Shown here one piece after another: positions 11,467 to 31,792 of a DNA stretch of 39,332 bases. How positions within the stretch are numbered: the stretch's first letter is position 1; each line of letters starts with the position of its first letter. The DNA is from a virus. The stretch covers positions 1 to 39,332 of IMG/VR virus record IMGVR_UViG_3300037246_001032; one strand, written 5' to 3'. Both the position numbers and the translations under genes were made by a program. The notes beneath the pieces were generated by a model, which worked only from the letters and a program-made list of their open reading frames with translations, was not told the DNA's origin and made no database searches.

Positions 11467-11910
11467 ATGTTAGATGACAAATATGTATTTTCAGCGTTGC
11501 AGGTAATAACAGCAAATGCAACAACTGTAAATTCCACCAGTACAGTAGATCTTGGTGCTCTCATTGAGGAATTCTCCTTAGGTGCCGGAACGCCGGTAGC
11601 AAGGACAAAGATGGGGCCCAAGAGTGGCCGTATAAATCTTGTCATTCGCATGGCGGTTCTGCCAACCGCAGGGACAAGTATCGCTTTTGTTTTGCAGGAT
11701 TCAGCAGATGATTCCACGTTTGCGGATACTGAAATTTCGGTTGCGACTATTGCAATCGCGGATTTGGTTCCGGGATATGAAGTATTGAATATTCCGTTGC
11801 CATTCGGTATAAATCGGTATCTGTTGATCGAGTACGAAACAACAGGGGACCATACTGGCAGTGTTGGTTCTATCAATGCACAGTTGGAATTCGGATCGCA
11901 TATGCGGTAA
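11467..11910 (+). CDS. Bbp16-like capsid cement protein
   Basis: The 147-residue, beta-rich product follows the capsid gene with its own AAAGGAGAA SD. The layout VFSALQVITANATTVNSTST ... VLQDSADDSTFADTE ... VPGYEVLNIPLPFGINRYLL and a short C-terminal strand resembles Bbp16-type jelly-roll cement proteins that clamp capsomers from outside. It has no cysteine and no signal peptide. It ends the head operon: an intrinsic terminator follows 18 bases later. Confidence 0.75.
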   Translation: MLDDKYVFSALQVITANATTVNSTSTVDLGALIEEFSLGAGTPVARTKMGPKSGRINLVIRMAVLPTAGTSIAFVLQDSADDSTFADTEISVATIAIADLVPGYEVLNIPLPFGINRYLLIEYETTGDHTGSVGSINAQLEFGSHMR

Positions 11911-11972: not shown

Positions 11973-13535
11973 ATGAAAAAGACGTTTTTCAATAAAATAC
12001 CAGCATGGATAATTGTATTGCTGTTGACGGTATTTATATCTATCAGCTATGCGACTTTCAATGACGGTGAGCACAGTCAGAATGGCAGATTTACTATTAA
12101 CGGTGTTATTCAGGAATTGGATAGCGCAACCGATGGAACTTCACTCTGTTTTGAGGGAACAACTGCAAATGCTTTTGAAACCTGTTTCCTATTCACTGAT
12201 CCAACGGCTGACAATGTAGTGACATTCGGTGACAGTTCGTTTTCGGCCGGAGCTACTAATGCTCATTCAGCTATAACTTCAATCACAGTTACAGACACCA
12301 CAACAAATGTAGTAAGCGACCTTCTGGTGATTGATCATTCAGGGGGAGACACTACTACTGGATTCGGAACTGGCATTTCATTCAAGCTCGAAGATGATAC
12401 TGGTACAACTACTGAGGAACACGCTTCAATTGATGTTGTCATAACTGATGGCACGTCCACTACTGAGGACTCGGATGTTGTATTTAGTGCGATGACAAAC
12501 GGAGACGTGGCTGAACAATTCCGACTTGTATCCGCAAATTCTGCGACTACTGGAGATTATGCCGTACATACAACAAATTCCACTGAGACGAACGGGATTA
12601 TTGACGTCATGCAGTTCAAGACAGCGGGGGTGGCCCCGGCGGGTAACTTCGGCATGAGTATTTCTTTCTGGATACCTGATGATGGGGACTCAACGCTTAA
12701 CGAGAACGCAAGCATAGACATATTCCAGAATTCTGCCACTGATGGTACGGAACAGACTGATTTTGTTTTTGAGTCTATGACCGCTGGCACTAAAGCTGAG
12801 ATACTCAGGATAGTAGCTAATAGTTCTGTCTCTACAGGTGACAGATTAACAATCACATCAAACACTACTGATGACAATGCTATTATCCCTATTCTTCGAC
12901 TTGCTCAAGCCAACGGCGCAAGCACAGCCACAACAGGCAATGGACTGTCAATAGAGTTCTGGCCTGAAGACGCTGGTGGTTCTGAATTACAGGGAAGTAT
13001 CGGTGTAGTCTTCACGGACGCTACGGATGCAAGTGAAGACACTGACATGGTGTTCAGCCTTCAGAACGCCGGCGCTATTGGAGAAGTGGCAAGGTTTACT
13101 GGTGCTGGAACCCTGACTATAGCTTCTGGAGGAGGATTTTTACCCCCTGCCGAAACCGTAACTAATACAAACGTAATACTTGCGGCTGAATGCGGAACAA
13201 CTTATTATCTGTCAGGTGATGGTAGTTTCTTGTCTACTCTGCCAGCGGTATCTACTGTAACTTCTGGATGTGAATTTGCGTTTGTTTCAAAATCTCCGCC
13301 AACTGGTGCTGACATCCATTCAGTTACTACTGGTAATTCACATGAGAATTTAATATACGGTTCTGTAGTTGTTAATGGGGCTGTAGTCGCTTGTGTTGCT
13401 GAAGATGTCGTTAGATTTGATGCTAGCGGTACAGTAGCTATCGGAGATCAGATAATTCTTAAATCTGATGGAGCTGCTTGGTATCTTTCTGGCGATGGAG
13501 TGTCAGCAAGTTCGCTAGTTTGTACAACTACATAG
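11973..13535 (+). CDS. Secreted-type virion protein with three ~95-residue repeats
   Basis: The 520-residue product has an N-terminal signal peptide (charged MKKTFFNK, core WIIVLLLTVFISIS, cleavage-type SYA-TF). The mature part is Thr/Ser/Gly/Asp-rich and contains three imperfect repeats starting near residues 134, 226 and 323, each with a GISFxxxDD strand, an acidic E-x-ASID-like strand, a DVVFSxMT-like strand and an NSS-TTGD-like turn. The C-terminus resembles phage fibre ends (GAAWYLSGDG). Six cysteines occur, two as TSLC...ETC. The AAAGGAGAG SD is strong. The position between cement and tail adaptor suggests a decoration or fibre protein; the signal peptide is unusual for that role. Confidence 0.6.
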   Translation: MKKTFFNKIPAWIIVLLLTVFISISYATFNDGEHSQNGRFTINGVIQELDSATDGTSLCFEGTTANAFETCFLFTDPTADNVVTFGDSSFSAGATNAHSAITSITVTDTTTNVVSDLLVIDHSGGDTTTGFGTGISFKLEDDTGTTTEEHASIDVVITDGTSTTEDSDVVFSAMTNGDVAEQFRLVSANSATTGDYAVHTTNSTETNGIIDVMQFKTAGVAPAGNFGMSISFWIPDDGDSTLNENASIDIFQNSATDGTEQTDFVFESMTAGTKAEILRIVANSSVSTGDRLTITSNTTDDNAIIPILRLAQANGASTATTGNGLSIEFWPEDAGGSELQGSIGVVFTDATDASEDTDMVFSLQNAGAIGEVARFTGAGTLTIASGGGFLPPAETVTNTNVILAAECGTTYYLSGDGSFLSTLPAVSTVTSGCEFAFVSKSPPTGADIHSVTTGNSHENLIYGSVVVNGAVVACVAEDVVRFDASGTVAIGDQIILKSDGAAWYLSGDGVSASSLVCTTT

Positions 13536-13567
13536 GCTAATTAAAATTAATATTAAAGGAGAATAAC

Positions 13568-13873
13568 ATGAGATTTGTATGTATTCAAAATTGTTTTACT
13601 GAATCCCTTGTTGAAAGAGGGCAGATTGCTCACTTCGAAAACGCAGAAGCAATCAACGAGGCGGTAAGGCCGTTTTTCAGACCGCTAAAAGCTTCCGATA
13701 AAGTTGTCAAAGGTGCGGACAACGAGGAACAGACCGAAAACGAGAAGCCTCTAGAGAAGATGTCAAAGGCTGAATTGCTTATTGAATGCGAAAGGGTCGG
13801 CGCGGCTGTTAATTCGGTGTGGCCTAAGCCAAAACTGTTGATAGAAATAAAAAAGAAAATCATAGGGTTCTAA
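13568..13873 (+). CDS. Small structural-region protein (101 aa)
   Basis: A good AAGGAGAA SD precedes the ATG. The N-terminus MRFVCIQNCFTESLVERGQI looks like a small beta domain (a common opening for phage proteins before the tail adaptor), and the middle is an acidic linker with Glu/Lys. The C-terminal part (KMSKAELLIECERVGAAV) is a short helical SAP/Rho-N-like fold by resemblance. It may be a minor head or head-tail joining protein; this is inferred from position. Confidence 0.5.
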   Translation: MRFVCIQNCFTESLVERGQIAHFENAEAINEAVRPFFRPLKASDKVVKGADNEEQTENEKPLEKMSKAELLIECERVGAAVNSVWPKPKLLIEIKKKIIGF

Positions 13874-13876
13874 GTT

Positions 13877-14755
13877 ATGGGTGCTACAGATATTGCCGTA
13901 GCTAACAGGGCGATGGCTATGATAGGTCAGGAGCTCATAGTTTCCGCCTTGACCGAGAATGCGAAACTGAATGCTGTTTATACTGCTGAACGTGATAGTG
14001 TTCTTACGATGCACCCCTGGAACTTTGCTCTTAAAAGGGATAGGGTCACGGTAGCCGGTATACTCGATTGTTCTGCAAAAGTGATTAGTTTTGTTGATTC
14101 CGATCCGGACACTATTACCGATGATGGCAACGGTTTTGTAGATGCCAATTTCGAAACTGGTGATATTGCTAATATTGCCGGTTCAGCTACGAACGAATCG
14201 ACTTATAGTGTCAATACCGTTGCTGCAGGGACATTAACGCTTGAATCTCACGAAGAAGTAACTGCTGAGGTCCTTACAAATGATACTGATCTTAAACTGT
14301 ATGCTTTAACTGCAGACGGTCGGTTTAAATTTCCCAAACCTTCAGACTGTTTGAGAGTTCATAAGGTCAACGAGGTCAATATCTGGAACGAGCCCTATCC
14401 TTGGGCGAAAGAAGGTAAGTATATTCTGTCAGAAACGATTGACGAAAACGATCAGTTGCCAATCGCTTACATTAAACAAATAACAGATCCTACGTTGTTT
14501 GATCCATTATTTGAGGAATGTTTTGTAGTCAAACTTTGCGCCGTCATGTCAATGGCTGACAAGGAAAATGCAGATCAGGCGTTGATGTGGATGAAGCATT
14601 TTGATTTCAAATTCAAACAGGCGACTCAGCGTAATGCCTATGAAAGCAGGAAAAGAAAAAGGAGAAGGAATACCGAATGGCAAAGAAACGGCAGAGGTGG
14701 ACGGTTCGACGAGAACGAGGGCTACGACAGATCGGGACGTTTTTATCCGCGCTAA
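13877..14755 (+). CDS. Tail tube/adaptor protein (T7 gp11-like) with beta insertion
   Basis: The N-terminus, AVANRAMAMIGQELIVSALT then AERDSVLTMHPWNFALKRDR, is typical of tail tubular protein A, the ring joining portal and nozzle. A beta-rich insertion (residues ~57-145) with Asp/Gly/Thr turns interrupts the family region before FKFPKPSDCLRVHKVNEVN resumes. The helical C-terminal part (VVKLCAVMSMADKENADQAL) is also family-like. The last ~25 residues are Arg/Lys/Gly-rich and overlap the start of the nozzle gene by 79 bases in another frame. It has four cysteines and no signal peptide. Confidence 0.8.
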   Translation: MGATDIAVANRAMAMIGQELIVSALTENAKLNAVYTAERDSVLTMHPWNFALKRDRVTVAGILDCSAKVISFVDSDPDTITDDGNGFVDANFETGDIANIAGSATNESTYSVNTVAAGTLTLESHEEVTAEVLTNDTDLKLYALTADGRFKFPKPSDCLRVHKVNEVNIWNEPYPWAKEGKYILSETIDENDQLPIAYIKQITDPTLFDPLFEECFVVKLCAVMSMADKENADQALMWMKHFDFKFKQATQRNAYESRKRKRRRNTEWQRNGRGGRFDENEGYDRSGRFYPR

Positions 14756-17700
14756 TACTGGTTATATTATTTACTTTACCCGTATCGGCTGGAAAGTTTA
14801 ACGATATCCAGGCGGGCTTTCAAGCCGGTGAACTAAGTTCTTACATTGACGGACAAGTGAATCTGGAACAGTATCGTTTTGGTGCAAAAACCATGACGAA
14901 CTTTATTCCTCATATCCAGGGGCCTGTTTCGAACCGGTCAGGTTTTAAATATATAGCTGAAACGAAAACATCAAGCAAAACCTCGCGGTTGATTCCTTTT
15001 GAGTTTTCTACAGAGCAAGCTTATGTTCTTGAATTCGGAGAATCATACATTCGTTATTATATGAATGGCGGTCAGATACAAACAGTCCCAAGTACAACTG
15101 TTTTACTTCTCTCGTCCAATGGAACCAATGCGGACACGACATTTACAGACGATTCTCCGATAACTCCCCATACTGTAACAGCAAATGGCAATGCACAACT
15201 TGACACTGCTGACAAGAAATTCGGATCAGCTTCAGGTCGCTTTGACGGCACAGGTGATTATCTTACTATTCCAGACGATGCAGATTTTGATTTAAGTGCA
15301 TCTGACGGAGGTTTCGATGCTTGGGTTAAGCCGGTAGTTGGGAGTTCGAATAATTATACCGTTTTTAGACAGGATATTGATGCAGATTCAGAAATATACA
15401 TGCAGGCGTATCTTGATAAATACACCGGGTTGCTTCTTAATGGCAATGGCACTGACGAAAGCACCATAATAACCGATTCATCGTTAAACACAAAAACCAT
15501 TACAAGAGATGGCAATACATCTTTACTGCTTCATGGAACTGGTTCGGACGGAAGTTCAAATATTATTGACTCCTCTTCAAATGAATATTCTATAGTACGA
15601 AATGGTACAGTTTCAGGGCCAATAATAGATACAAACACATATAAGTTTGGTGGAAGTTCTATTATATTTGATGAGAGTGACAGTCAATACTTAGTAACCC
15701 CTGACAATGCTGATTTCAATTTGAATGGCGTTGACTTTACTATATCAGCATGGATAAATCTAGACACTCTTGACACTGGAGATTCTGGTCAATTTATCTG
15801 GTGCTATAACGATTCGGCAGGTGCGGGAGTAGCACAAAGATTTGACGGTCACATATCACAAGCTGCCGGTAAATTTGTAGTTACTGTATCGGACAATTCG
15901 GGCAATACTCAAACAGTAACATCCTCAACATCAATTACTGCAAATAACTGGCATCATCTTGAGTTTGCATCTGATGGTACGAACTACTATATGTTTATTG
16001 ATGGCGCCTTAGATAAAAACCCTCTTATAACTGCTTCTATTCCTACGTTTCCAGACTATGAAGTTCAAATCGGAAGATATGAGCAAGACATTTCAGGTGG
16101 CGGGACAACGGCCAATTACTTGTCTGGGTGGCTAGATGATTTTGCAATACTAAAGGGGGCGATATCGCATACAGATTCATTCAGTGTTCCAACATCTGCC
16201 AATGCCGCCGTTGAAATAGACACCTCAGACCCTAAGTTCGGAACAGGGGCTATTAAGTTCGGTGGTCAAGATCATTTAATTGTAACAGGTAGTAGTGATA
16301 CTGATTTCAATGATGATGTTTTTACAATTAGCGGGTGGTTTAATTATGATGCTCAACCAGGAGAAGGAGTTGAGCAGTATATATATCACCAGTATGTCGA
16401 TGTTGATAATTTCATATCTATATTAATAACCACGAATACAAAACAGCCTCAAATGGAAATAATTTTACAAAATGGGGGGAATTCAGATGTAAATGCAAAA
16501 CAAATTTTTTCTGGTTGGAACCATTTCGTAGTTACATGTGATGGTGGTTCAAATTATGGCATTTTTATTAATGGATCTAGAAGTCCAGTATTTAGTCTAT
16601 CATCTTCATTTCCAGATATGTCTGCTACTGACATATATCTTGGCACAGATAAAGATGGAGCCAATGGGTTTGTTGGATTGTTAGACGATATAAAGATAAT
16701 GAAGTCAGAACGATATGACGTTAGCACGTCAACTTTAACCGTTCCAAGTGCAGAGGACAAGTACATCGCTCATCCTGTATTCGAGATAGGAGATACCGTC
16801 CCAACGGTTGATACGGTGAAATATCACGACGACACTATAACGGCTGACGCCTTTCACCATGTTGAAATAAACTATGATGTGTCCGAGCCTCAAGTATACA
16901 TGTTCGTAGATGGTCAGCTACATTCCGGCGGTGTTCAGGCCATGACGTTAACAGCGTCAGGTTCGCTTGACAGCGTTTTTTCAATTGGCGCTGACCCTGA
17001 CGGTTCAACTCTTCCATATGAAGGTTGGATGGACGAGATAAGATTTGTCAATGGCGCTCTTAGTCATACTGCTAATTTCGTTCCGAATACTGTTGAATAT
17101 TTAACTCTTGGAACTACTCCTTACGAGACAATCACAACGTATACTGAAGCTGAATTAGCTCAATTACAATATGTTCAGTCAGCAGATACTTTGTATATTG
17201 TTCATCCTAATCACTTCCCCGCTCAATTAACGAGGACCGGTCATGTAAGCTGGACATTAACCTCATCGCCGATTGTCAATGCTCCTATATCTTGGGCTGT
17301 AGCGTCTTATCCATCTTCGGTTGTATTCTTTGAAGATCGGTTATGGTATTCCTATTCGCAGACCTTATTTTCTTCTCAGGCCGGTGACTATACTAATTTT
17401 GTGCCTAATGATGCTGGTAGCGTCGAAACTCAGGCAGCTGGAAGCTGGACAATAGCAACTGATTTAGTTACCGTTGCCAGCAATAATACTACTTGGATTG
17501 ACGGCTATAAAATTCAACTTACAACATCTGATACCTTGCCTTCCGGTTTGGCGTTGGCCACGGACTACTATGTTTACAGGTCAGACTCAACACACATCGG
17601 TTTTGCTACTACGGCAGTAAACGCATACGCAGGGACATTGATAGATTTTACGGATCAGGGTGTGGGCAATCACACGATAACCTTGCAGGATACTTGCACA

Positions 17701-18801
17701 GGCGATGCTTGTGCCATGCAATATACGATTGCTTCAAATAATGTTAATGAAATTCAATGGCTGTCTTCAGGAAAAATACTTGTTGCCGGAACCACTGGAG
17801 GCGAATATAAAATATCAGCTTCCTCTCAGGATGAGGCCCTTACCCCTACAAATGTTAGGGTGGTGAAACAGTCGTCTTATGGTTCTGCTTATATATTGCC
17901 ATTGACTATAAAAGATGTCGTTCTTTATCTTCAGCGACTCGGCAGGAAAGTTCGGGAATTCACATATCGCTTTGAAGATGATACTTATGTTTCCCCGGAC
18001 CTGACCGTACTTGCTGAACACATAACGGAGAGCAGCATTAAGTATATGGATTATCAGCAGGAACCAAACTCTATTGTGTGGGCCGTTAAAAATAACGGAG
18101 ATTTAATAGGGATGACATATTCACGCGAAAGCGGTACGGTGGCATGGCATAAACACACAACGAACGGAAACTTCGAAAGTCTTGCTGTAATTCCAAGTAT
18201 TACAGGTAACGACTATGAAGAACTTTGGGTAATAGTGAAGAGGACGAAAAACAGTTCAATTGTTCGGTATATCGAACAACTGCAACCTCAATTCGATCAT
18301 AATGATTCTATTGAAGATGCTTTTTTTGTAGATAGTGGGCTTTCTTATGAGGGAGTCCTGACTACTTCTATATGTGGACTGGATCACCTGGAAGCCGAAA
18401 CGGTGGTTGTCTTGGCAGGTGGCGTAGTCCAAGCATCAAAGACTGTTTCAAGTGGGTGTGTGACTATTGATACCGCAGCCCGAAAAGCTTCAATAGGGCT
18501 TTCTTATTCTTCTACGCTTCAAACTATGAGGTATGCTGGGAATGGTCCGAAGGGTACTTTGGCAGGACAGGAGAAACGCATACCTAAAGTGGTTATAAGG
18601 CTTGAGAACGCAAAACAGTTTCAATACGGGCATAGCGCGTTAGGGACTTTAAAAACAAAAACTCTTTCGAGTCTGACTACGGGGGACATAGAACTCACAA
18701 TGCCTTTGGGTATTAACCGAGAAGGCTATGTAGCTATTGTAAACACTCAACCTTTGCCTATAACGATCACGGCAATAATTCCGGAGGTTAACTTTAATTA
18801 A
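14677..18801 (+). CDS. Tail nozzle protein (T7 gp12-like) with signal peptide and LamG-like insertions
   Basis: The 1374-residue protein begins with a basic n-region, the hydrophobic core TFLSALILVILFTLPVSA and a predicted cleavage before GKFNDIQ. The mature start (FQAGELSSYIDGQVNLEQYR, then NFIPHIQGPVSNRSGFKYI) is the normal start of podovirus nozzle proteins. From about residue 140 to 810 the family sequence is broken by several LamG/concanavalin-like modules (WHHLEFASDG near 424, WNHFVVTCDGG near 614, FHHVEINYD near 725); nozzle sequence resumes at TYTEAELAQLQYVQSADTLY (~817). A second insertion near 915-1005 (LPSGLALATDYYVYRSD) is a known virion module. SD AAGGA lies 7 bases before ATG 14677; no other ATG, GTG or TTG skips the signal. 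Confidence 0.85.
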   Translation: MAKKRQRWTVRRERGLRQIGTFLSALILVILFTLPVSAGKFNDIQAGFQAGELSSYIDGQVNLEQYRFGAKTMTNFIPHIQGPVSNRSGFKYIAETKTSSKTSRLIPFEFSTEQAYVLEFGESYIRYYMNGGQIQTVPSTTVLLLSSNGTNADTTFTDDSPITPHTVTANGNAQLDTADKKFGSASGRFDGTGDYLTIPDDADFDLSASDGGFDAWVKPVVGSSNNYTVFRQDIDADSEIYMQAYLDKYTGLLLNGNGTDESTIITDSSLNTKTITRDGNTSLLLHGTGSDGSSNIIDSSSNEYSIVRNGTVSGPIIDTNTYKFGGSSIIFDESDSQYLVTPDNADFNLNGVDFTISAWINLDTLDTGDSGQFIWCYNDSAGAGVAQRFDGHISQAAGKFVVTVSDNSGNTQTVTSSTSITANNWHHLEFASDGTNYYMFIDGALDKNPLITASIPTFPDYEVQIGRYEQDISGGGTTANYLSGWLDDFAILKGAISHTDSFSVPTSANAAVEIDTSDPKFGTGAIKFGGQDHLIVTGSSDTDFNDDVFTISGWFNYDAQPGEGVEQYIYHQYVDVDNFISILITTNTKQPQMEIILQNGGNSDVNAKQIFSGWNHFVVTCDGGSNYGIFINGSRSPVFSLSSSFPDMSATDIYLGTDKDGANGFVGLLDDIKIMKSERYDVSTSTLTVPSAEDKYIAHPVFEIGDTVPTVDTVKYHDDTITADAFHHVEINYDVSEPQVYMFVDGQLHSGGVQAMTLTASGSLDSVFSIGADPDGSTLPYEGWMDEIRFVNGALSHTANFVPNTVEYLTLGTTPYETITTYTEAELAQLQYVQSADTLYIVHPNHFPAQLTRTGHVSWTLTSSPIVNAPISWAVASYPSSVVFFEDRLWYSYSQTLFSSQAGDYTNFVPNDAGSVETQAAGSWTIATDLVTVASNNTTWIDGYKIQLTTSDTLPSGLALATDYYVYRSDSTHIGFATTAVNAYAGTLIDFTDQGVGNHTITLQDTCTGDACAMQYTIASNNVNEIQWLSSGKILVAGTTGGEYKISASSQDEALTPTNVRVVKQSSYGSAYILPLTIKDVVLYLQRLGRKVREFTYRFEDDTYVSPDLTVLAEHITESSIKYMDYQQEPNSIVWAVKNNGDLIGMTYSRESGTVAWHKHTTNGNFESLAVIPSITGNDYEELWVIVKRTKNSSIVRYIEQLQPQFDHNDSIEDAFFVDSGLSYEGVLTTSICGLDHLEAETVVVLAGGVVQASKTVSSGCVTIDTAARKASIGLSYSSTLQTMRYAGNGPKGTLAGQEKRIPKVVIRLENAKQFQYGHSALGTLKTKTLSSLTTGDIELTMPLGINREGYVAIVNTQPLPITITAIIPEVNFN

Positions 18802-19307
18802 TGGCTCTTTTAACTACAATAGCCTTAATAGCAACTGTTGTGTCAGCCGGAGTTTCAGCTTATTCGTCTATTCAGCAAGGCAAGGCGGCCTCTCGAATGG
18901 CGAGTTACAATGCCTTAATTGCTAAGAGAAACGCTGATCTTGCTTTAAAGAGGCAGGAGTTACAGCAGATTCAAATTCGCATCGAAGAGAAAAGACACAG
19001 GGAAAAATCTAAGAGAACTATTGCGACTCAAAGAACATTATTCGGCAAGGCGGGCGTTGTCTCGGAAACAGGCACGCCGTTATTGGTGATGGCAGATACG
19101 GCAGCAGAGGCAGAACTTGATGCAATATCAATACGTCTTGCCGGAAGTGCCGAGGAAGCACGAATTGTAGCTGAAGGGGCGGGATTCGAACAACAGTCTC
19201 AACTTGCCAAAATGCGAGGCTCTGCGGCAAAGACAGTAGGGCGTATAGGCGCGGGGAGTGCCTTGCTGAGTGGAATAACTCAATTTCAGCAATTAAAGGC
19301 TTCTTAA
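18801..19307 (+). CDS. Internal virion protein B-like (gp14-type)
   Basis: The 168-residue product overlaps the nozzle stop (TAATG). It begins with a hydrophobic stretch (MALLTTIALIATVVSAGVSA) without positive n-region or clear cleavage end, then a long Gln/Arg/Lys helix (ADLALKRQELQQIQIRIEEK) and a Gly/Ala-rich C-terminal half. This layout matches T7 gp14-like ejection proteins that form part of the inner core and insert into the host outer membrane on infection. It has no cysteine. The order B, C, D after the nozzle supports the call. Confidence 0.7.
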   Translation: MALLTTIALIATVVSAGVSAYSSIQQGKAASRMASYNALIAKRNADLALKRQELQQIQIRIEEKRHREKSKRTIATQRTLFGKAGVVSETGTPLLVMADTAAEAELDAISIRLAGSAEEARIVAEGAGFEQQSQLAKMRGSAAKTVGRIGAGSALLSGITQFQQLKAS

Positions 19308-19308
19308 T

Positions 19309-21027
19309 ATGGCAGATAACATACCAAAACTTCAAAGGATAACAAATTTACCAAGCAGAACTGGAGGGCCCGGTACCGGCCTGAGGCTTGCTGATGAGGG
19401 AATCACTGCTGCGCCTTTCCGAGCTTTAGATACTTTGGGGAAAGAGATCGGCAGTTTCGGCGAAGTTCTATTTATAAAAGCACAGCAGCACGAAAAACAG
19501 GATAGAGATCTCGGGCAAAAGAAATTGCTTTTAGATATAGAGAATCAGACCGGGGCAATATACAATCAATTTCAAACTGCTGAGAGTCCCCAAGAAATAC
19601 TTAGATTGCATGATGAGCATTTCGAGAAAGATTCGATAACTGGGATAAAGAGTTTAAAGCGCCTTCATTCTTTTGGTGACGATCTTTCTCGGATAGATAG
19701 CAAAGATGATGTGTTACTTGATAGATATAAGAAGCTGAACTTAACAGAGCAAGATACCGCAGAATTCAAGCTAAATCGAGAGGGTTATCTTGACAGGGTA
19801 GAAAATAAAATCACGGCACTTGTCGCAGGGGCCCGGTTTGATGTTTTCAAGGAAACCGTAGGGCTCGTAGATCAAAGCATCATAAACAATGTCCGAAACG
19901 GTATTGTTGATTTTGATGACGGTATCCTGGGCATATTGGACAATTATGAGGATAATGGATATCCGGAATCTGTAAATGCTCCCTTAAGAGAAAGTGCCGT
20001 TCAGTTTGCTACGAAGACATATCTTGACGATGAATTTGACAAGGGGAATATCGAAGTCATACAGGCGGTTCTTAGCGGACAATTCGATGATGAGCTCAAC
20101 GATGTCTACAAGGAAGAGCAGATAGTTAATGATTTCAAAGACAAGGCCCGGATCGCAGAATCAAAAGTCAAAGTTGATCAGGCGAACATAAAATATGATC
20201 CGGAACAATATGAACGTGATTTTAATGCACTTGAAAAGGATGTCCAGGCTGATAAGGGTCTCGATGCCGACGAAAAGAACAAGGTTCTCCAGACAGCTCA
20301 GGTGGAGATAAACAGACGTAATGCTGCCGATCAGAAAGTTATAACGGCGCGGCGTACCGAGCAGAAAAATCAATATAGCAATCTTCTTGCTGAAGGTGAT
20401 ACAACTTCGGCCTTGAAATACATTGATGACATGGACGACTTTGAGGACTTTGAGAAGAACAAAATGAGAGCCGAGCTTGCCAAGGGTATCGACATTACCG
20501 CCGATAACAATGCTTTAGTTGAAAAGGACTTTCGCATAAGAGTTGAAGATATAAATCATAATACCGATAGGCATGAAATAGATAAGCTAAAGAGCGAGGT
20601 ATTGGACGCTTTCGCTAATTCAGATAAAAAGAAACGTATCAGCGAAACCAATAGAGACACCCTTTTAAATGAGATTGATGAAAATGTAACCGAGTCTCTT
20701 GGGGGCGGCCTGAAAGATGCGCTCAAGAAGGTGGACGAGTTGGATAAGCAGTTCGCATTTGCACCCGATGTAGGGGGGTCTGACATTGAAAAAGAAATGG
20801 CAAACTCAGAAGCGGCGTTAACGGTTAAAAGTGAGATAAGAAGGCGAGTTGAAAAAGGCGAAGATCCGATATTGGCCTATAATAATGCTATGAAACCGAT
20901 ATTGGAGGCGCAATCGAAAACATTGTTGGATAGGTTTTACGATACCATTATTAGGCCATTTGCGGGGACAGGAAAAAAGAAGAAAACCACAACTGGCAAT
21001 AGATTTACCATTAAGGAGACACCGTAA
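19309..21027 (+). CDS. Internal virion protein C-like (gp15-type)
   Basis: The 572-residue hydrophilic protein lies in the second position of the ejection-protein trio. Predicted secondary structure is almost entirely helical, with many acidic/basic heptad-like stretches (for example ARIAESKVKVDQANIKYDPE) and no cysteine. It ends in a basic Lys/Thr tail and shares its last base with the next start (TAATG). T7 gp15-like proteins line the periplasmic DNA channel during genome ejection. No catalytic motif is seen; the call is mainly from position, length and composition. Confidence 0.6.
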   Translation: MADNIPKLQRITNLPSRTGGPGTGLRLADEGITAAPFRALDTLGKEIGSFGEVLFIKAQQHEKQDRDLGQKKLLLDIENQTGAIYNQFQTAESPQEILRLHDEHFEKDSITGIKSLKRLHSFGDDLSRIDSKDDVLLDRYKKLNLTEQDTAEFKLNREGYLDRVENKITALVAGARFDVFKETVGLVDQSIINNVRNGIVDFDDGILGILDNYEDNGYPESVNAPLRESAVQFATKTYLDDEFDKGNIEVIQAVLSGQFDDELNDVYKEEQIVNDFKDKARIAESKVKVDQANIKYDPEQYERDFNALEKDVQADKGLDADEKNKVLQTAQVEINRRNAADQKVITARRTEQKNQYSNLLAEGDTTSALKYIDDMDDFEDFEKNKMRAELAKGIDITADNNALVEKDFRIRVEDINHNTDRHEIDKLKSEVLDAFANSDKKKRISETNRDTLLNEIDENVTESLGGGLKDALKKVDELDKQFAFAPDVGGSDIEKEMANSEAALTVKSEIRRRVEKGEDPILAYNNAMKPILEAQSKTLLDRFYDTIIRPFAGTGKKKKTTTGNRFTIKETP

Positions 21028-24000
21028 TGCCTTTCGAGGTAATAGACAATGCAACCGGCAGAACGGCAACTTTCGATAATGAGCCGACAGAGACAGACTT
21101 ACTTGAGGCTTTTGGTAGTGAGCCCGTTGATGTTCCTGTATTGCCCGATATACCCGATGAGTCAGTTGCCGAAAGATTAACCAGAGAAAAAAAAGAAGGC
21201 ATTGCTCCGACAATATCGACCCTTGAAGTTCAATCATTATGGGAAAAGTCAGGTATTATGGATTTAATTCGCAATGAACCTGAGTTAAAAGCTAAGTCAC
21301 AAAATTCTATTGCTTTTGCTGAGATGTTTAACATATCGCCGTCACAGGCGTTTGATTTACACGATGAGTTATCTGAGGAGGTCGGATTAAGGCAGGAAAT
21401 AACAACCGAGGAGTTTATAGGTGGAGCCATGCTTCCCGTGGTCGCCGCTGGACTTGCAATGAATCCCGTGGGAGCATTGTTAGGCATTGCAACTTTTGAA
21501 GCGATAAGTGAGGTAGAGAGTGCCGTTATAAATGTAATTGAGGGTGAGAAGTATCAGGCATTTCAGAAAAAAGGACTGTCTGATTTGCTACCTGAAGAAG
21601 CAAGCCAACTAACAACAGACATTGTTGATACGCTTGATTTTATAGGCAAGGGGTTGTTGGCTCATCAGGTATTTAGGACATCTCCCCGGTTAGCAGAAAA
21701 AGTAGCCAAAGAAATAATTACTGAGCACAAAGCTCCTAAGACTATTTATATCGACCCTGCCGAATTGAGACTACATTTACAGGAACAACCGAGCAAGATA
21801 GGCGCTACCGAAGCAGGGATTATCTCTGAAATGAAAGGCGTTGGCGCTTTAGAAGGTAAGGCACTCATTCGTCAAGCATTAAAAGACGGGGTTAAAATCG
21901 AAATACCTGCCGAGAGAATAACTATATTAAGAGATAGGCCGTGGTTTGCTAAAGTCAAGGAGATATTAAAAATTGATCCGGCACAGGAAGTTAGAACCGT
22001 CACGGAAGAAGGTGTTAAGACTTTCAAGTTTGGTGAGCGTGAAGTTAAGGCAACTAAGCCGGAAGAAATTAAGTTGCTTGAGAAGTTAGAGGTGGAACGT
22101 AAAGCAATTGAAACTTCAACCGAACCGGAACCTATCAAACGTGTAACTGAGATCGATAAAGAAATATCAGAGATAACAAAGCCGCTTGTCACTACTGAGG
22201 TTGAACTCAAAAAAGAGATTAAAGTGGTCAAGGAGGAAACTCCCGAAAAAACACAGGACATCGTTATCAAGGCAACCGAAGACGCATTTAAAAGGGAACT
22301 CTCCACTATAAGAGATGTTGTCAGTCAAGAACCTGAATTGGAAATATCCAAACTCGGAGCAACTAAAGGCTTCACAAATAAGGAAATAGCCAAGGGACTC
22401 CAGAAAGCCGAACAGGGCAAGAAACTCAATGTAAGAGAAAAGAGAATATTAGGTGGTGCTATCTCAACAGCACATGAGAGATTGTCTGAGCAATTGGCTA
22501 GAGTTCCACAAACGGACATGGAAGCATTTATTGATAACTCCATTACTCAGATAGCACAAGAACATCTGTCTGCCGCTGAGATGGAGAAGTTGATTGTGTC
22601 GGAAATAAAGAAACAGACGCAGAAGGTGATGAAGGGTGAGGTAGTAACTACTGAGGCCATACTCCTGCGTAAAAGGCTACGAGACGAGGCTAGAGGTGCA
22701 AGGTTAGCCGAAAGAGTCACTAGGAAGCAAATGGTGGACGAATTCAGGCGTTCAAGTAAGAATCTCAAGGATACTCGGAAGATGCTCATTGATTTCATAG
22801 AAGATCAATTACCGAAAGAGGCGCAGGGTAAGTTTATTAAATCTCTACAAGATGATTTAACGCTCAAAAAACAGGCTTCTATTTTTGGTAGAGTGGAAAA
22901 GCTTTCAGAAGAATTGACGAGGAAAGAGCTGGTTGCTGATATCAAAAAACTCAAAAAACCTAAAGGAAATATAGCCGTTGATTATCAGAAACGAATAGTG
23001 GCTATCGCACAAGACTTTCAAATAACCACGCCAACACAGAAAACTATTGATAAGCTGACGGGACTCAAAGAGTTTATCGAGAGTAATCCCGATTTAAATA
23101 TTCCTCAAAAGCATATTGATAAACTTGACAAACTTTCAAAAAAACCGATTCAGGATTATACAACTGATGAATTGACTGACTTAAGGGATACGCTATTAAG
23201 GTTGTCTGAACACGGAAAATTGAAGCAAAAGCTAAAGAATAAGTACAATGAGCGTGAACGTCAAGTTGCCCTTAATAGATTGTTAAAGTCTACCAGAAAT
23301 ATTGACCCTAAGCTATTTGGTGCCGAAAAGGGTGTCAAGAAAAAGATAGACACTTTTAAGCGTGGCGGCTTGATTGCATATCTCAATACTTTGCATACTC
23401 CAAGGGTGGCTGATTTCATAGATGGTTTCAGGGGATATGAGGGCGAGAACGCCAAACTGATGAAACGATTAGGATTTGCAGAAACTCAAGCCAATCTCGA
23501 AACGAGAACCGTAATAGACACTGCTTTACAAGAAATCAAAGACATAGGCATTGAAGAGATAACCGCCGAAGACCAAGTGAGAATTGCCATCAACCTACAT
23601 ATACAGCAGAAAGCATTTGAGCAGGCTAAAACTATAATGACGGATAACGGACTGACCAAGGTACCCGACATATCAACAAAGGAACAGGAACTTATTAATG
23701 TAGTCAGGAAACATCTCAATGCAAATGTCGAGCAGATAGCGGCATTGTCAGAAGAATTGAAAAATGTTCCCTACGAAAAGGTTGAGAATTATTTTCCAAT
23801 TAAATATAAAAGAGATTTCAATATAGATCCTGATAAACTTGTCATGCAAACAGGTCGCAGAACTGCCCAAACATTCGAGGGTTTTAATTTGCAGAGACAA
23901 AAAGGGGTGTCAAAGAGCCCTAGGACAGATATACTTGCAGTATTTGAAGAAGCTATAAACGAACAGCAGTGGTACCTGAAGATGCAACCTGAACTTGAGA

Positions 24001-25169
24001 ACATAAAGCAGTTAGTTAAGTCTAAGGAATACCTTGAGCAAGGGGGAGAGATAGCTACAAACTATTGGACGAATCAGTTAGACATTGTTGCTCGCAGAGG
24101 ATGGAGCGCAGGAGCAAGGTCAAATGAGATATTGAGACAGTCAAGGATTAATTTAAATCAGGCGATACTTGGATATAAATTATCTTCAATATTGATGCAA
24201 CCGTTTGCTGTATTCGATGCAATGGCATATGCACAGTCACGTTACGGAAGCACGGCATCTCTTGAGATATTAAGCGAGTTCTCGAAAGCATGGACTAATC
24301 CAAGGTCGGCACGGGAATTCATTAAAACGTCTCCCGCACTTCAAACAAGGCAAGGCGGTGAATTAGCCATAGAAGAAACTCTTGAAAGCGTTGGTAGAAC
24401 AGAAGGGTTTTTGCAGTCATTCCAAAAAGGTGGATTGTCTTTATTGCAAAAGGCTGATTTACAGACAGCCGCAGGAGTCCAGAAGGGTGTTCAGAATATT
24501 CTTGAAAAAAATAATATTCCTGATGCTGCAAAGGAAGCTGAATTTGTAATGAACATGGTATCGGGTAGCGCAGAGGTAGCTTATAGACCACAGATATTGG
24601 CAAGTGGCGAGGGCGCAAGAACATGGTTCACATTCCAGACATTCTTTCTTAACAGGTGGGGTATAATGGCCCATGACTTAATAGCCTCAGGGTTGATAAT
24701 GGGCAAGACATGGCAGGCAAAAGCATCTGCACTTATCGGGCTAGGTATATTTATGGCGGGCAATATAGCTGAAGAAGAAGCGAGAGAGTTTTTGTTTGAA
24801 ACAGTTACTGGCAAGGAACTCCCCGAACAATCAATGTTTAAAACAGCGGCCTTATCAATTCCCTCACAGGTTCCATATTTCGGCAATGTTCTTCAGGCAG
24901 CTGTCAGGGGTGGAAGTTCTAATCCTCCAACCATAAGAGTTGTTGAAAATATCTTTAGAGGTGGAGCGCAAATAGCAAGTGGGATTGAAAAGGAAGATTC
25001 AGGTAAAATAGCGAGGGGAGCATTAAAATTGACAGAAAACGCTTTGGCTGTATCTTTGGGGGTACCCGGTACGGCTCAAGCCTTTGATGTTTTTGAGGGA
25101 ATATTTCTAAGACCAGAAGAAAGACGCAGATCCAAAAGAAAAAAATCACGAAAAAAACATAAAAAATAA
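21027..25169 (+). CDS. Large internal virion/ejection protein (gp16-like position)
   Basis: The 1380-residue protein is helical and has not one cysteine. Visible parts are a hydrophobic helix near 133-158 (GGAMLPVVAAGLAMNPVGAL), a KTIYIDPAELRLHLQ motif near 235 that recurs in large phage virion proteins, long charged coiled coils (300-760), an amphipathic region near 1200-1270 (HDLIASGLIMGKTWQAKASA) and a strongly basic tail (RRRSKRKKSRKKHKK). It fits the third ejection protein, exported into the cell with the DNA. I see no lytic transglycosylase signature, unlike T7 gp16, so peptidoglycan opening may come from another protein. Confidence 0.65.
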   Translation: MPFEVIDNATGRTATFDNEPTETDLLEAFGSEPVDVPVLPDIPDESVAERLTREKKEGIAPTISTLEVQSLWEKSGIMDLIRNEPELKAKSQNSIAFAEMFNISPSQAFDLHDELSEEVGLRQEITTEEFIGGAMLPVVAAGLAMNPVGALLGIATFEAISEVESAVINVIEGEKYQAFQKKGLSDLLPEEASQLTTDIVDTLDFIGKGLLAHQVFRTSPRLAEKVAKEIITEHKAPKTIYIDPAELRLHLQEQPSKIGATEAGIISEMKGVGALEGKALIRQALKDGVKIEIPAERITILRDRPWFAKVKEILKIDPAQEVRTVTEEGVKTFKFGEREVKATKPEEIKLLEKLEVERKAIETSTEPEPIKRVTEIDKEISEITKPLVTTEVELKKEIKVVKEETPEKTQDIVIKATEDAFKRELSTIRDVVSQEPELEISKLGATKGFTNKEIAKGLQKAEQGKKLNVREKRILGGAISTAHERLSEQLARVPQTDMEAFIDNSITQIAQEHLSAAEMEKLIVSEIKKQTQKVMKGEVVTTEAILLRKRLRDEARGARLAERVTRKQMVDEFRRSSKNLKDTRKMLIDFIEDQLPKEAQGKFIKSLQDDLTLKKQASIFGRVEKLSEELTRKELVADIKKLKKPKGNIAVDYQKRIVAIAQDFQITTPTQKTIDKLTGLKEFIESNPDLNIPQKHIDKLDKLSKKPIQDYTTDELTDLRDTLLRLSEHGKLKQKLKNKYNERERQVALNRLLKSTRNIDPKLFGAEKGVKKKIDTFKRGGLIAYLNTLHTPRVADFIDGFRGYEGENAKLMKRLGFAETQANLETRTVIDTALQEIKDIGIEEITAEDQVRIAINLHIQQKAFEQAKTIMTDNGLTKVPDISTKEQELINVVRKHLNANVEQIAALSEELKNVPYEKVENYFPIKYKRDFNIDPDKLVMQTGRRTAQTFEGFNLQRQKGVSKSPRTDILAVFEEAINEQQWYLKMQPELENIKQLVKSKEYLEQGGEIATNYWTNQLDIVARRGWSAGARSNEILRQSRINLNQAILGYKLSSILMQPFAVFDAMAYAQSRYGSTASLEILSEFSKAWTNPRSAREFIKTSPALQTRQGGELAIEETLESVGRTEGFLQSFQKGGLSLLQKADLQTAAGVQKGVQNILEKNNIPDAAKEAEFVMNMVSGSAEVAYRPQILASGEGARTWFTFQTFFLNRWGIMAHDLIASGLIMGKTWQAKASALIGLGIFMAGNIAEEEAREFLFETVTGKELPEQSMFKTAALSIPSQVPYFGNVLQAAVRGGSSNPPTIRVVENIFRGGAQIASGIEKEDSGKIARGALKLTENALAVSLGVPGTAQAFDVFEGIFLRPEERRRSKRKKSRKKHKK

Positions 25170-25187
25170 AAAAAGGGGGAGGTTGTT

Positions 25188-25907
25188 ATGAAAAGATTTA
25201 TTGTAGTATTAGCAGTTCTGTTGCTTTCAGTAGTGCCGGTTTTTGCAGGAGATATTAATGTATCGACGTGCATATACACTTTCACGAATATTACAACGGT
25301 ATCAACCGGACCGTCTTCATGTATTGGCCGAGGGGTTGATCGGTGTTCGGAAAATACTAATTGTGCTATGAATACTGCCGGGGCTGAAACTGTCAGAACT
25401 GAGCATATTCCTTCTGCTGTAACACATACGGCTACGGATTGGGACGTAGAGGTGTGGACAAATGATGTTGTGGGTGGTCCCTTTAAATATTATACAGACG
25501 CAGAAACTGCTGACGGTGCATTAGCTACTATCGGTGGGGCTGCTGATACACAGTATGATGTTACGGTATCAAGTGGAACAGTCACATATACATGGGATGA
25601 TACTGGGACTGACCCCACAATTACAACGACCGATCCCCCGAGAGGTTCTGTTATATGTATATCCGGTTTTGCAACTGCGAATAATGGATGCTTTATAGTT
25701 GAGTCAACGGTCGCTAAGGCTTTTTCTATATATAATACTTCCGGTACTGCTGAAACAAATGTGACTTCGGCAACAATAGTATCTGGCACAAACGCAGCTG
25801 GTTCAAATGGTATCACTTCGGGGTATAATTGGGTGCTTCCGAAGATATCCGAAAATGGAGCCTTGAGGGTTGATGCAACCGTAACTGTAACAGTGACAAA
25901 GAGGTAA
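25188..25907 (+). CDS. Secreted-type tail appendage protein (239 aa) with signal peptide
   Basis: The signal peptide is textbook: MKRF, core IVVLAVLLLSVVPV and FA-GD cleavage end. The mature part (~219 residues) is Thr/Ser/Val-rich beta structure with six cysteines, several closely spaced (SSCIGRGVDRC, CSENTNC, CISGFATANNGC), as expected for disulfide-bonded exported proteins. A strong GGGGGAGG SD precedes the ATG, and the gene follows the ejection proteins directly. The segment AETADGALATIGGAADTQYD is like repeats in phage appendage proteins. Likely a tail fibre or adhesin-type protein; it could instead be a host-surface protein. Confidence 0.55.
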   Translation: MKRFIVVLAVLLLSVVPVFAGDINVSTCIYTFTNITTVSTGPSSCIGRGVDRCSENTNCAMNTAGAETVRTEHIPSAVTHTATDWDVEVWTNDVVGGPFKYYTDAETADGALATIGGAADTQYDVTVSSGTVTYTWDDTGTDPTITTTDPPRGSVICISGFATANNGCFIVESTVAKAFSIYNTSGTAETNVTSATIVSGTNAAGSNGITSGYNWVLPKISENGALRVDATVTVTVTKR

Positions 25908-25908
25908 C

Positions 25909-28035
25909 ATGAAAAAAATATACTGTTTAATAATAGTATTGTCTTTGCTTTGTGCGATCTCGGTATTTGCGGAAGACAAACCACAACTTCCCGCTGTCAA
26001 CGCTTCTGGGGTTCCGATAAATCCTGCAACAGATGAGGGCCTTAACAATATTATTACCGAACTCCAGACCGTTACAGTAGTAAGTGCCGTCAATTCAACG
26101 ACAACGCCGCTACTCGGGACTGCCTCTGCGCCTGCTGACACATTTACAGGAACCGCCACAATTTTAACTTCATGGGCTTCTGGTACTGTTTCGGTTCTTG
26201 CAGATCAGGATTCAGTAACGGACGGATTTAAGGTTCAATATTCATCCGATGGCACAAATTGGGACCACGAACATTCATATAGCGTAATGGCGAACGTATC
26301 TAAAACCATACCTATTGATCGTGAAGGTTTGTATTACAGGGTTGTATATACGAATGGAGCGGCAGCGCAAGGAACTTTCAGGCTCCAGACACTATTAAGC
26401 AAGAATACCTCAAATCCACATACTCATCCTATTGAATATGTTTTTGATGGCACTCATCCTGCACCTTTAACCCGGACAGTTATTTCAGCTAAAAAACCAA
26501 ACGCTGCTTACTGCAATGTAGAGGCTACGTCAGGCTGTAATTTGAAACTCTCCCTTGAAGAATCAAACGGGGATGTTAAACGTGACGGCCTGAATGTCAG
26601 GGAAAAGTCTCGTACTGCTTTTGATGAAGTTCTCATGGCTCAATTAACTCCTGTTGTCCAGTTGCAATTTCCATACAATATAAATTCTGTCTTAGTGGAT
26701 TCAAGGGCGAATCAAAGCGGTGCGGTTACCCAGGCTTCAAATATGGCTCATCTATCCACTGGAGCTGCTGCAAATTCATCGGCGCAACTATTATCAAAAG
26801 ACCACATTGACTACAATCCCGGGCAGGGTACCGTTGAAAGGTTCACCGCATCGGGGATAACGTGTGTTGCTAACTCAACTCAAGTAATTGGTGTTGGCGA
26901 TTCAGGGGATGGCTATTTCTTCGGTTGTGATGGTGCTGATTTTGGAGTATTAAGACGCAAGGGCGGTTCACCTGAAATAAGAACCCTGACAGTCTCTACA
27001 GCTTCATCTGATGCAGAAAACATAACTATTACGCTTGATGGTGATGCACAGAGTTCCGTAACAGTGACGGCGAGCGGAGTAATTACCACAACAGCCAATG
27101 AGATAGCAGCTGCGGATTATACAGATACAGGCCGTGGTTGGACAGCGGAAGCCGTGGGCGATACAGTTATATTTTATTCATGGGATTCTTCGGTGCGTAC
27201 AGGGTCGTACACTTTATCAAGTGCAACCTCTGCGGTAGGTGCTATTGCTCAGACAGTAGCCGGAATTGCCCCCACTGATACATGGAATGCTCAAGCAAAT
27301 TGGTCCGAAGATCAAGGTGATAATTCCGTTCTATTACCTGTAATGGATTGGACGAAAGGCAACGTCTTTCAGATACGTTATCAGTGGCTCGGATTCGGCA
27401 TGATTTCTTATTCGGTAGAAAACCCCGATACTGGAAGGTTTGTAAAAGTACATGAAATAGAATATGCCAATGCAAACACAAGCCCATCAGTTAATGACCC
27501 TTCATTACCCTTGTGTGCGATAGTCGCCAACGCTTCTAATGCTACAGACCTGACTATGGATATCGGTTCAATGGCAGGGTTTATAGAGGGTAAAGATGCG
27601 GAGTTAGGATCCAAGCGTGCCGTTAAGAATAACAAGACAAATGCCGGAGCTACAGAGATACCCATACTGACAATTAGAAACAAAACCGTTTATCAGGGGA
27701 GATTGAATAGAACTAAAGTTAAAGTGAAATTGGCAAGTATGTCGGTCGAGCATACAAAACCAATGACCGTTAATTTCTATCTGAACCCTACATTGACGGC
27801 GGCTTCTTATTCCGACGTTGATACAAATACATCTGTCATTCAAACAGATACTTCCGCAACATCTTTTTCGGGGGGAACGCTTTTGTATTCGATCGATCTC
27901 GGCAAGACCGGAAATCAGTTGATTGATTTGTCGGATGTATTGTTGCCAGGAAATCATGTAACGGCAACCTCAATTCCCAATAGCAGTAATGGATCTGAAA
28001 CGAATGTAACCTTCAATTTTATAGAATTATTTTAA
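25909..28035 (+). CDS. Conserved phage tail protein (708 aa) with signal peptide
   Basis: The start MKKIYCLIIVLSLLCAISVF is a signal peptide ending in an FA-ED site. The mature sequence opens with a module common in phage tail proteins (LPAVNASGVPINPATDEGLN), has a beta domain with FKVQYSSDGTNWDHEHSY, and a central region (RTAFDEVLMAQLTPVVQLQF, then SGAAANSSAQLLSKDHIDYN) that I recognise from tail-associated proteins of environmental phages. A further module (TTANEIAAADYTDTGRGWTA) follows near 385. The C-terminal third is beta-rich. Five mature cysteines include the pair CNVEATSGC. Probably a tail fibre/baseplate-type protein. Confidence 0.65.
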   Translation: MKKIYCLIIVLSLLCAISVFAEDKPQLPAVNASGVPINPATDEGLNNIITELQTVTVVSAVNSTTTPLLGTASAPADTFTGTATILTSWASGTVSVLADQDSVTDGFKVQYSSDGTNWDHEHSYSVMANVSKTIPIDREGLYYRVVYTNGAAAQGTFRLQTLLSKNTSNPHTHPIEYVFDGTHPAPLTRTVISAKKPNAAYCNVEATSGCNLKLSLEESNGDVKRDGLNVREKSRTAFDEVLMAQLTPVVQLQFPYNINSVLVDSRANQSGAVTQASNMAHLSTGAAANSSAQLLSKDHIDYNPGQGTVERFTASGITCVANSTQVIGVGDSGDGYFFGCDGADFGVLRRKGGSPEIRTLTVSTASSDAENITITLDGDAQSSVTVTASGVITTTANEIAAADYTDTGRGWTAEAVGDTVIFYSWDSSVRTGSYTLSSATSAVGAIAQTVAGIAPTDTWNAQANWSEDQGDNSVLLPVMDWTKGNVFQIRYQWLGFGMISYSVENPDTGRFVKVHEIEYANANTSPSVNDPSLPLCAIVANASNATDLTMDIGSMAGFIEGKDAELGSKRAVKNNKTNAGATEIPILTIRNKTVYQGRLNRTKVKVKLASMSVEHTKPMTVNFYLNPTLTAASYSDVDTNTSVIQTDTSATSFSGGTLLYSIDLGKTGNQLIDLSDVLLPGNHVTATSIPNSSNGSETNVTFNFIELF

Positions 28036-28044
28036 AGGGGAACT

Positions 28045-29793
28045 ATGAAGAAAATAATAATCTTGTTTTTGATATTAATGGCAACATCTGTTCTTGCTGA
28101 TGAGAAGTCAGGAAATAAACCTCGCACTATTGACGGTGCAACGGGAGGGACGATCAACGGCCCCTTAGTGGTCACAGGCCCCGCAACCGTAGGTGGTGGA
28201 TTGATTGTTGATAAGCCAACAAGTTTAAATTCCGCCGAAGCACTTACCAATACCACCTTTGCTACTGGTGGTTCAAGTTGGACAGTGACGGCTCCCTGTG
28301 TTTTATCTACGGGGTTCATAACCTGTACAGGCCCAGGTACGGGCACGATTAAGCAGACAGTAGCCAATATGGCTTTAGCCCCTGCCAGTTCCTCCCTATA
28401 CAGACTATTATATAGTGAGTCCACCGTAACAAACACTCCTATAGCAACATTAAAGGCTACAGGGGGCATGTCTGATGCCGATGTCTCATTGACGATAGCT
28501 CAAGACACTGACCTATTTCACTTTTTTCAGTCTGCTGCTGCTCCCACCGAGTTTTTAATAAATATCTCCTTGGATGCAGGTGATGTCATAGCGTTTTCTA
28601 AATTATCATTAGAGCAGGCATCTGCTAATCTTACAAATTTCGGAAGAGTTTACGGGAATTTGTGGATTCATGGTGATCCTGCGGATGATACAAAAATTAG
28701 CCGGATTATATTTACGGAAGAGGGATTGGTCAATCCACTGACTCTAACGCTTCCTCATAATAGTTACGGAGAAATAGGCAGGCAAGGCTCTACAGGGGTT
28801 CTTGACGTAAGGGGATTTGGAACTGGCAGCGAATCGCTGCATCTTCGTGGTCACACTGGAAGCATATCCCCAAGTGCTGCTGTCATATCAATAGATGCAA
28901 GCAAAAACAATGGAGCAAACTACGTTACCATTTTAGCAGACAATGAAATGATATCATGTTTCCAAAATAACCATAATGATAGGGTATGTGTATTTGGAAA
29001 CGGTACATTGAGCTTGGGAGCTAGTCAGGGAACGTCTATAATACCTAACCCAAATGCGGCAATAGGTACTAGAATTACCCCAGACTCAGGTACGACATAT
29101 GATTTGTCGCTCGGCTCCAATTCTTCCAACAATTTAATAACAACCAAAGGGAATGTTATCGGGTTTGGAACCGATGCCAGCAACCTTAGCATTGAAATGC
29201 TGAACGGATCAGCCGATAACCTAGGTGTGAAATTAGGCACTCCATTAAATGCTTTTTCTACATACTTGCAAATGGATACATTAAACAATGATGAGAATGG
29301 TGCTACGGGCCTAGAAACGAGCCATTGCGATGCCGATGCAGAGGCGGGGCGTATGATTCTGTCTAACAGATATTCAGCACCGGCAGAATACAGGGAATGG
29401 AAATGTACTAAAACTGGTGCTTCGTCCTATGCGTGGAAATACAAACAGCTTGATTTAAGTGGGACTGTAACCTGTGGAGACGGTACTAATGTTTGCGCCT
29501 ACACTACCGGGCAATCTGCTTTCTATATAACGCTTGACGATGACGCAGACGGCAACGATGTTATGACCGTAACCGATGGGAACCAAGGTGATGAAGTATT
29601 TATTTCACTTCAAAGTCTTGGCGGTGGGGCAGTTGCGCTTGAAATAACGCCATCTAATTTAGCTAATGGAACAACGGTGACTCTTGATGCGGCGGGTGAA
29701 TCAGTCACGTTTCATTTTGACGGCTCTAATTGGAATATTAAAGGTTGCTATAACTCAACTGCCGATGGTGGTTGCGCTGATTTAGTAACTTAA
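28045..29793 (+). CDS. Tail fibre-like protein (582 aa) with signal peptide and paired cysteines
   Basis: The product opens with MKKIIILFLILMATSVLA, a signal peptide with a clean LA-DE cleavage end. The N-terminal mature part (TIDGATGGTINGPLVVTGPA) resembles fibre shaft repeats; the middle has beta-helix-like Gly/Asn/Ser repeats, and the C-terminal ~100 residues (MTVTDGNQGDEVFISLQSLG, FHFDGSNWNIKG) look like a fibre tip domain. Ten cysteines occur, eight as close pairs (Cx8C, Cx9C, Cx6C, Cx8C). SD AAAGGGG precedes ATG 28045. It ends the structural block and is a candidate receptor-binding protein. Confidence 0.65.
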   Translation: MKKIIILFLILMATSVLADEKSGNKPRTIDGATGGTINGPLVVTGPATVGGGLIVDKPTSLNSAEALTNTTFATGGSSWTVTAPCVLSTGFITCTGPGTGTIKQTVANMALAPASSSLYRLLYSESTVTNTPIATLKATGGMSDADVSLTIAQDTDLFHFFQSAAAPTEFLINISLDAGDVIAFSKLSLEQASANLTNFGRVYGNLWIHGDPADDTKISRIIFTEEGLVNPLTLTLPHNSYGEIGRQGSTGVLDVRGFGTGSESLHLRGHTGSISPSAAVISIDASKNNGANYVTILADNEMISCFQNNHNDRVCVFGNGTLSLGASQGTSIIPNPNAAIGTRITPDSGTTYDLSLGSNSSNNLITTKGNVIGFGTDASNLSIEMLNGSADNLGVKLGTPLNAFSTYLQMDTLNNDENGATGLETSHCDADAEAGRMILSNRYSAPAEYREWKCTKTGASSYAWKYKQLDLSGTVTCGDGTNVCAYTTGQSAFYITLDDDADGNDVMTVTDGNQGDEVFISLQSLGGGAVALEITPSNLANGTTVTLDAAGESVTFHFDGSNWNIKGCYNSTADGGCADLVT

Positions 29794-31779: not shown

Positions 31780-31792
31780 AGGAGCAAATGAA

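Follow-up and report, generated by a model that had tools for sequence, protein, structure and literature searches.

Five Sec-type leaders in a podovirus late region

The stretch analyzed here, called the window below, is the whole of the IMG/VR virus record IMGVR_UViG_3300037246_001032 (39,332 bases), which contains a podovirus late region ordered as in epsilon15 and BPP-1. The series runs from the terminase (phrog_675), portal (phrog_332), a scaffold-like protein (phrog_3742), the capsid protein, a cement-like protein (phrog_427), and the adaptor (phrog_394) to the tail nozzle (phrog_376), a gp14-type ejection protein (phrog_418), two large ejection-type genes, and then three more large genes. 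Five genes of this region, all on the plus strand, start with a Sec signal peptide, and one of them encodes the tail nozzle.

The nozzle, of the T7 gp12 type (14677..18801, 1374 amino acids), begins with the 38-residue leader MAKKRQRWTVRRERGLRQIGTFLSALILVILFTLPVSA^GK (Sec signal at 14677-14790, predicted cleavage VSA^GK). Between the cement protein and the adaptor lies the gene of a 520-amino-acid fiber-like protein (11973..13535) with the leader MKKTFFNKIPAWIIVLLLTVFISISYA^TF (11973-12053, predicted cleavage SYA^TF), which had no PHROG or Pfam match. Directly downstream of the ejection proteins, a 239-amino-acid protein without a family match (25188..25907) carries the leader MKRFIVVLAVLLLSVVPVFA^GD (25188-25247, predicted cleavage VFA^GD). 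It is followed by a phrog_1645 virion structural protein of 708 amino acids (25909..28035, E = 7.7e-36) with an added N-terminal region, MKKIYCLIIVLSLLCAISVFA^ED (25909-25971, predicted cleavage VFA^ED), and by a putative tail fiber of 582 amino acids (28045..29793), with only a weak match to Pfam Phage_depo_C, that starts with MKKIIILFLILMATSVLA^DE (28045-28098, predicted cleavage VLA^DE). For 11973, 25188, and 28045 no relatives were found in cultured phages, and structure prediction of the mature proteins gave unusable models (predicted local distance difference test scores of 37 for 28045 and 39 for 11973).

All five leaders have a basic n-region, a hydrophobic core, and the small-residue motif at positions -3 and -1, and all passed our rule-based caller; the N-termini are thus as stated in a preliminary description of this DNA, which had reported complete Sec signals for the five genes while omitting that 11973 belongs to the head/connector module and not to the tail module. 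Matches to the anti-Shine-Dalgarno sequence at the five leader starts ranged from -7.1 to -12.0 kcal/mol, compared with a median of -2.9 and a 5th percentile of -7.8 at random sites. As background we used 2023 non-overlapping open reading frames (ORFs) of ≥200 amino acids from related viral loci. The lenient form of the caller flagged 36 of them (1.8%), five in the window, many of the others being spurious. Signals in 5 of the about 17 large window genes against 15 of 1990 ORFs in the hand-filtered background correspond to P ~1e-7, a value that assumes independent ORFs and a background filtered by eye. The caller itself is a simple home-made rule. It did not detect the MalE control, and its strict form also failed on one of the signal-bearing nozzles described below (that of L197).

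The nozzle as a putative exported virion protein

The assignment of 14677 as a nozzle is clear from the matches to phrog_376 (E = 3.7e-157) and to the solved “Tail Nozzle” structure 8ck1 (E = 1.6e-77), with the family profile matched over the N-terminal platform region and the C-terminal half. Its position agrees, since the gene follows the T7 gp11-type adaptor (phrog_394, E = 5.9e-29; 13877..14755, plus strand), whose 3' end runs into the codons of the nozzle signal, and precedes the phrog_418 gene at 18801. The start lies 47 residues ahead of the conserved F..GE motif, compared with the usual, although non-defining, 8 to 11 residues, and from the start of the signal to the conserved F there is not a single in-frame ATG, GTG, or TTG. 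The nozzle is a part that podoviruses need. It is single-copy in the record, and no signal-less second copy was found in the window; with a signal on it, the protein that builds the virion would itself be addressed to the Sec pathway. Behind its N-terminal part the protein, which also matches PF13385, has three LamG/ConA-like insertions that double its length relative to BPP-1.

Signals among related nozzles and fibers

To place the window nozzle in its family, comparison loci (numbered with the prefix L) were gathered by pattern searches that favor some clades. These yielded 362 nozzle N-terminal regions, three of them truncated, leaving 359 for comparison. As many as 352 start at the canonical position with no hydrophobic extension, two have a short polar extension, and one begins with an unusual start codon. 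A signal is present in only four, namely, the window, L002, L139, and L197. In a tree of the nozzle core, these occupy three positions (the window, L002 with L139, and L197), each adjoining signal-less sequences; at least two unrelated lineages have an export tag on the tail nozzle. No signal-bearing nozzle appeared among the 52 loci returned when one genome per species was scanned by pattern, nor did the annotated virion genes of the cultured phages epsilon15, AF, HTVC010P, DC33, and Tr60_Ab31 give a signal call. Limnohabitans phage DC33 (PQ492659.1, L386) is filed under Inoviridae, yet by capsid protein and gene order it is an epsilon15-like podovirus.

How a nozzle differs with and without a leader can be read from L144, which has no signal and is closely related, as a sister, to both L002 and L139 (ca. 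75% identity to L002). The three have in common the adaptor 3' end, the Shine-Dalgarno region, and the TTG start. L144 begins TTG-AGT-AGA-TAT, with SRYNFIK directly after the start, while in L002 and L139 about 21 signal codons stand in the same frame between the TTG and (S/A)RYNFIK, a clean indel. The signals of L002 and L139 have drifted in sequence and kept their layout, which suggests selection for function. Support for grouping L002 with L139 apart from L144 is weak (0.23), so that gain plus loss inside this trio is possible.

Among 119 T7-type fiber N-termini, 117 were canonical with no extension and two (L197 and L277) had a signal. In L197, signals are found on the nozzle, the T7-type fiber, and a third protein, and on none of the capsid, adaptor, and ejection proteins; in L277 they are found on the T7-type fiber and on a small protein encoded close to the gene of the cement protein. 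A gene at the locus position of 11973 in L375/L376 shares a short matching segment with it and also has a signal, though no cysteine. No direct match was detected between 28045 and the fiber-like proteins of L155 or L375, and none of the six phrog_1645 relatives of 25909, from cyanophages and huge phages, has a signal. Small signal-bearing proteins with no family match occur near capsid/portal genes in L277 (8263-8943) and L156 (4934-5344) and are possibly further exported outer parts.

Predicted cleavage at the canonical boundary

The families show where the four signal-bearing nozzles and the two fibers would normally begin. In five of these six proteins a strict AxA-type cleavage motif is placed exactly at canonical residue 2; in L002 it lies one residue earlier. 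Each 17-position span around the boundary contains two to four such motifs. In both fibers the tail family starts at residue 28, corresponding to profile position 2, right behind the predicted cleavage. Leader removal would thus yield the usual mature N-terminus, and this coincidence of motif and boundary is the main argument for reading the leaders as cleaved signals and not as anchors. From it we infer export tags added precisely to tail proteins and cleaved off, an indirect argument in which two of the six proteins (L002 and L139) are related.

Cysteine content

The counts of mature cysteines given in the preliminary description (6 in 11973, 6 in 14677, 6 in 25188, 5 in 25909, and 10 in 28045) and the spacings it quoted were reproduced. 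It had left out the cysteines of the adaptor 13877 (four), of 13568 (three), and of the portal (two). Its generalization that signal and cysteines go together did not survive the comparison with homologues. In their conserved part, signal-bearing nozzles have cysteine densities of 0.29 to 0.51%, whereas the median of 211 nozzles lacking a signal is 0.49%. The two properties thus show no link in this family, and signal-less relatives can be cysteine-rich. The fiber of L197 and the fiber-like protein of L375 have a signal and no cysteine at all. The contrast with the ejection proteins is largely a family trait, since these are also cysteine-free in signal-less phages.

Within the window proteins themselves, an oxidative role of the cysteines remains plausible. 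Residues C1233 and C1261 of the nozzle are both cysteine only in the window (1 of 284 nozzles), neither being cysteine in the other 283, which makes them a candidate disulfide gained as a pair and the one point that speaks for oxidative folding here. The nozzle of L375 (from 5726), which lacks a signal, holds 13 cysteines in its truncated 684 amino acids.

A proposed assembly across the inner membrane

Tailed phages are taken to assemble wholly in the cytoplasm. A precise, recurrent export tag on a core tail part would mean either morphogenesis that proceeds in part across the membrane or a so far unknown virion use of Sec signals. The export tags themselves are well supported. That they serve to export and process outer tail parts, which then finish the heads once the membrane opens, is a reading to which we give even chances on the basis of these sequence patterns. 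According to this model, the nozzle and other outer parts would be made as preproteins and pass through SecYEG, signal peptidase I would remove the leader, and the parts would wait in the periplasm, where the cysteines of the window proteins could form disulfides. In the cytoplasm, heads would be built and packaged with DNA and would receive portal and adaptor as a cap, all from signal-less proteins. Once the holin has opened the inner membrane, these two pools would come together, and nozzle and fibers would close and finish the heads. The complete scenario, in which cytoplasmic DNA-filled heads and periplasm-matured nozzles and fibers join at the opening of the inner membrane and the signal arose on separate occasions in three or more podovirus lineages, seems to us possible, its chances lying somewhat short of even. 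The earlier suggestion of a passage of outer tail parts through the inner membrane gains strength from the comparison of 359 nozzles, with the signal exactly ahead of the canonical N-terminus in three branches, while the option offered along with it, surface-displayed proteins that are not part of the virion, is weakened for the nozzle, a clear single-copy phrog_376 protein.

Several observations weigh against assembly in two compartments. The T7 nozzle is hexameric under the adaptor and forms the main DNA seal (PMC6702177), and heads would therefore have to hold their DNA without a nozzle until the membrane opens. A closed portal has been proposed to retain the DNA of T7 before tail addition (PMC6702177), which makes such a delay physically reasonable. 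Signals are also rare (ca. 1% of nozzles), and a draw of 395 genomes from the phylum to which Pseudodesulfovibrio belongs gave about 20 prophage nozzles, none of them with a signal. L002 and L139 are related and do not count as independent observations, and the nozzle of L277 has no signal although its fiber has one, so that the parts need not move together. In addition, all signal-bearing phages found are uncultured, present in metagenomic contigs and known from sequence alone.

Among the alternatives, the leaders might act as membrane tethers, keeping nozzle and fibers bound to the inner membrane, where heads would dock before lysis, with later cleavage being optional. The n- and h-regions would suit this role equally well, and the n-region of the window nozzle is long and strongly basic. 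We regard tethering as unlikely all the same, given that type I cleavage motifs exactly at the normal start in five of six proteins would not be needed and that a classical Sec signal would place the rest of the protein across the membrane. The exported proteins could also have a job outside the virion, such as receptor blocking, superinfection exclusion, or surface display. The phage does encode further exported proteins, a DUF481 outer-membrane barrel among them, and 25188 and 28045 are without a proven virion homologue, but this proposal has to account for a family-defining tail part with no signal-less substitute in the window and for the virion-binding N-terminal domain of the T7-type fibers of L197 and L277, and we assign it a low probability.

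It is very improbable that uncleaved hydrophobic N-termini of nozzle and fibers insert into the host envelope during infection. Hydrophobic segments on the outer tail could conceivably contact a membrane at adsorption, but a fiber docks by its N-terminus, the placing of cleavage motifs at the canonical boundaries would be left unexplained, and the same solution would be required independently in fibers and nozzle. Finally, chance or annotation could have produced the pattern, by wrong start codons or a captured leader devoid of function, a suspicion fed by the use of metagenomic contigs only and of a home-made caller. Wrong start codons were rejected, since good Shine-Dalgarno sequences precede the leader starts and the window, L002, and L197 have no ATG, GTG, or TTG where the canonical start would be (the L139 nozzle, unlike these, has an internal GTG). 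The signals also come from distinct contigs of different samples, and the layout shared by L002 and L139 despite sequence change speaks against a functionless leader; an artifact is scarcely credible as an explanation.

Relation to known systems

The protein families involved are known, and the export tag is the new element. The window nozzle shares with T7 gp12 and the podoviral nozzles (phrog_376, 8ck1) its family, post-adaptor position, and conserved N- and C-terminal regions, and differs in the added Sec signal and the LamG-like insertions. Likewise, the portal, capsid, cement, adaptor, nozzle, and gp14-type genes follow the order of epsilon15/BPP-1-like podoviruses, with homologues of capsid, cement, portal, adaptor, and nozzle all in place, whereas the cultured members of that group examined gave no signal call. 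No precedent for Sec signals on tail nozzles, T7-type fibers, or other tail or virion proteins was found in the open literature, subscription papers and preprints lying outside the scope of the search. Filamentous phages (inoviruses), the coat proteins of which traverse the inner membrane, offer a likeness in that their virion proteins have signal sequences and assembly proceeds via the membrane (PMC4823517). In contrast, the window belongs to a tailed phage with double-stranded DNA, whose icosahedral head and ejection proteins are signal-less and in which no extrusion machinery was seen; its capsid protein has no signal, which does not fit membrane assembly of the inovirus type. Rotavirus VP7 is an outer protein of a non-enveloped virus whose signal is removed in another compartment (PMC13043047), although in an unrelated eukaryotic virus, and the analogy is one of principle only.

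If assembly in two compartments is true, lysis would be the gate for final assembly, the use of disulfides in some phage fibers could be explained, and these phages would provide a natural example of the Sec pathway handling large beta-rich tail proteins.

Other genes of the window

The remaining head and ejection genes, all on the plus strand, lack leaders of this kind. They comprise the portal/head-tail connector (7633..9348, phrog_332, E = 2.9e-83), the scaffold-like protein (9677..10447, no cysteine), the epsilon15/BPP-1-type major capsid protein (10470..11450, one cysteine), and the cement-like protein (11467..11910, no cysteine). The capsid protein has tblastn matches in 88 phage records, epsilon15 and Bordetella phages among them. 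The three ejection proteins are cysteine-free. That of the T7 gp14 type (18801..19307) has an N-terminus that is hydrophobic and without positive charge, and the two at the gp15 (19309..21027) and gp16 (21027..25169) positions were assigned by position.

Downstream of lysis-type genes, three small to medium genes on the plus strand (31495, 31793, and 32121, together spanning 31495..32834) have signal-like hydrophobic N-termini, of which the strict rule calls only 31495, the other two being judged by eye. The last of them (32121-32834) is a phage-encoded DUF481 outer-membrane beta-barrel, beside lysis-type and other exported-type genes, and suggests a diderm host. Small fibronectin/Ig-like proteins are encoded in L139 (16773-17186), with a signal, and in the window (30497-30775), without one. 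A polysaccharide pyruvyl transferase-like gene (5122-5898) lies between the terminase and the portal.

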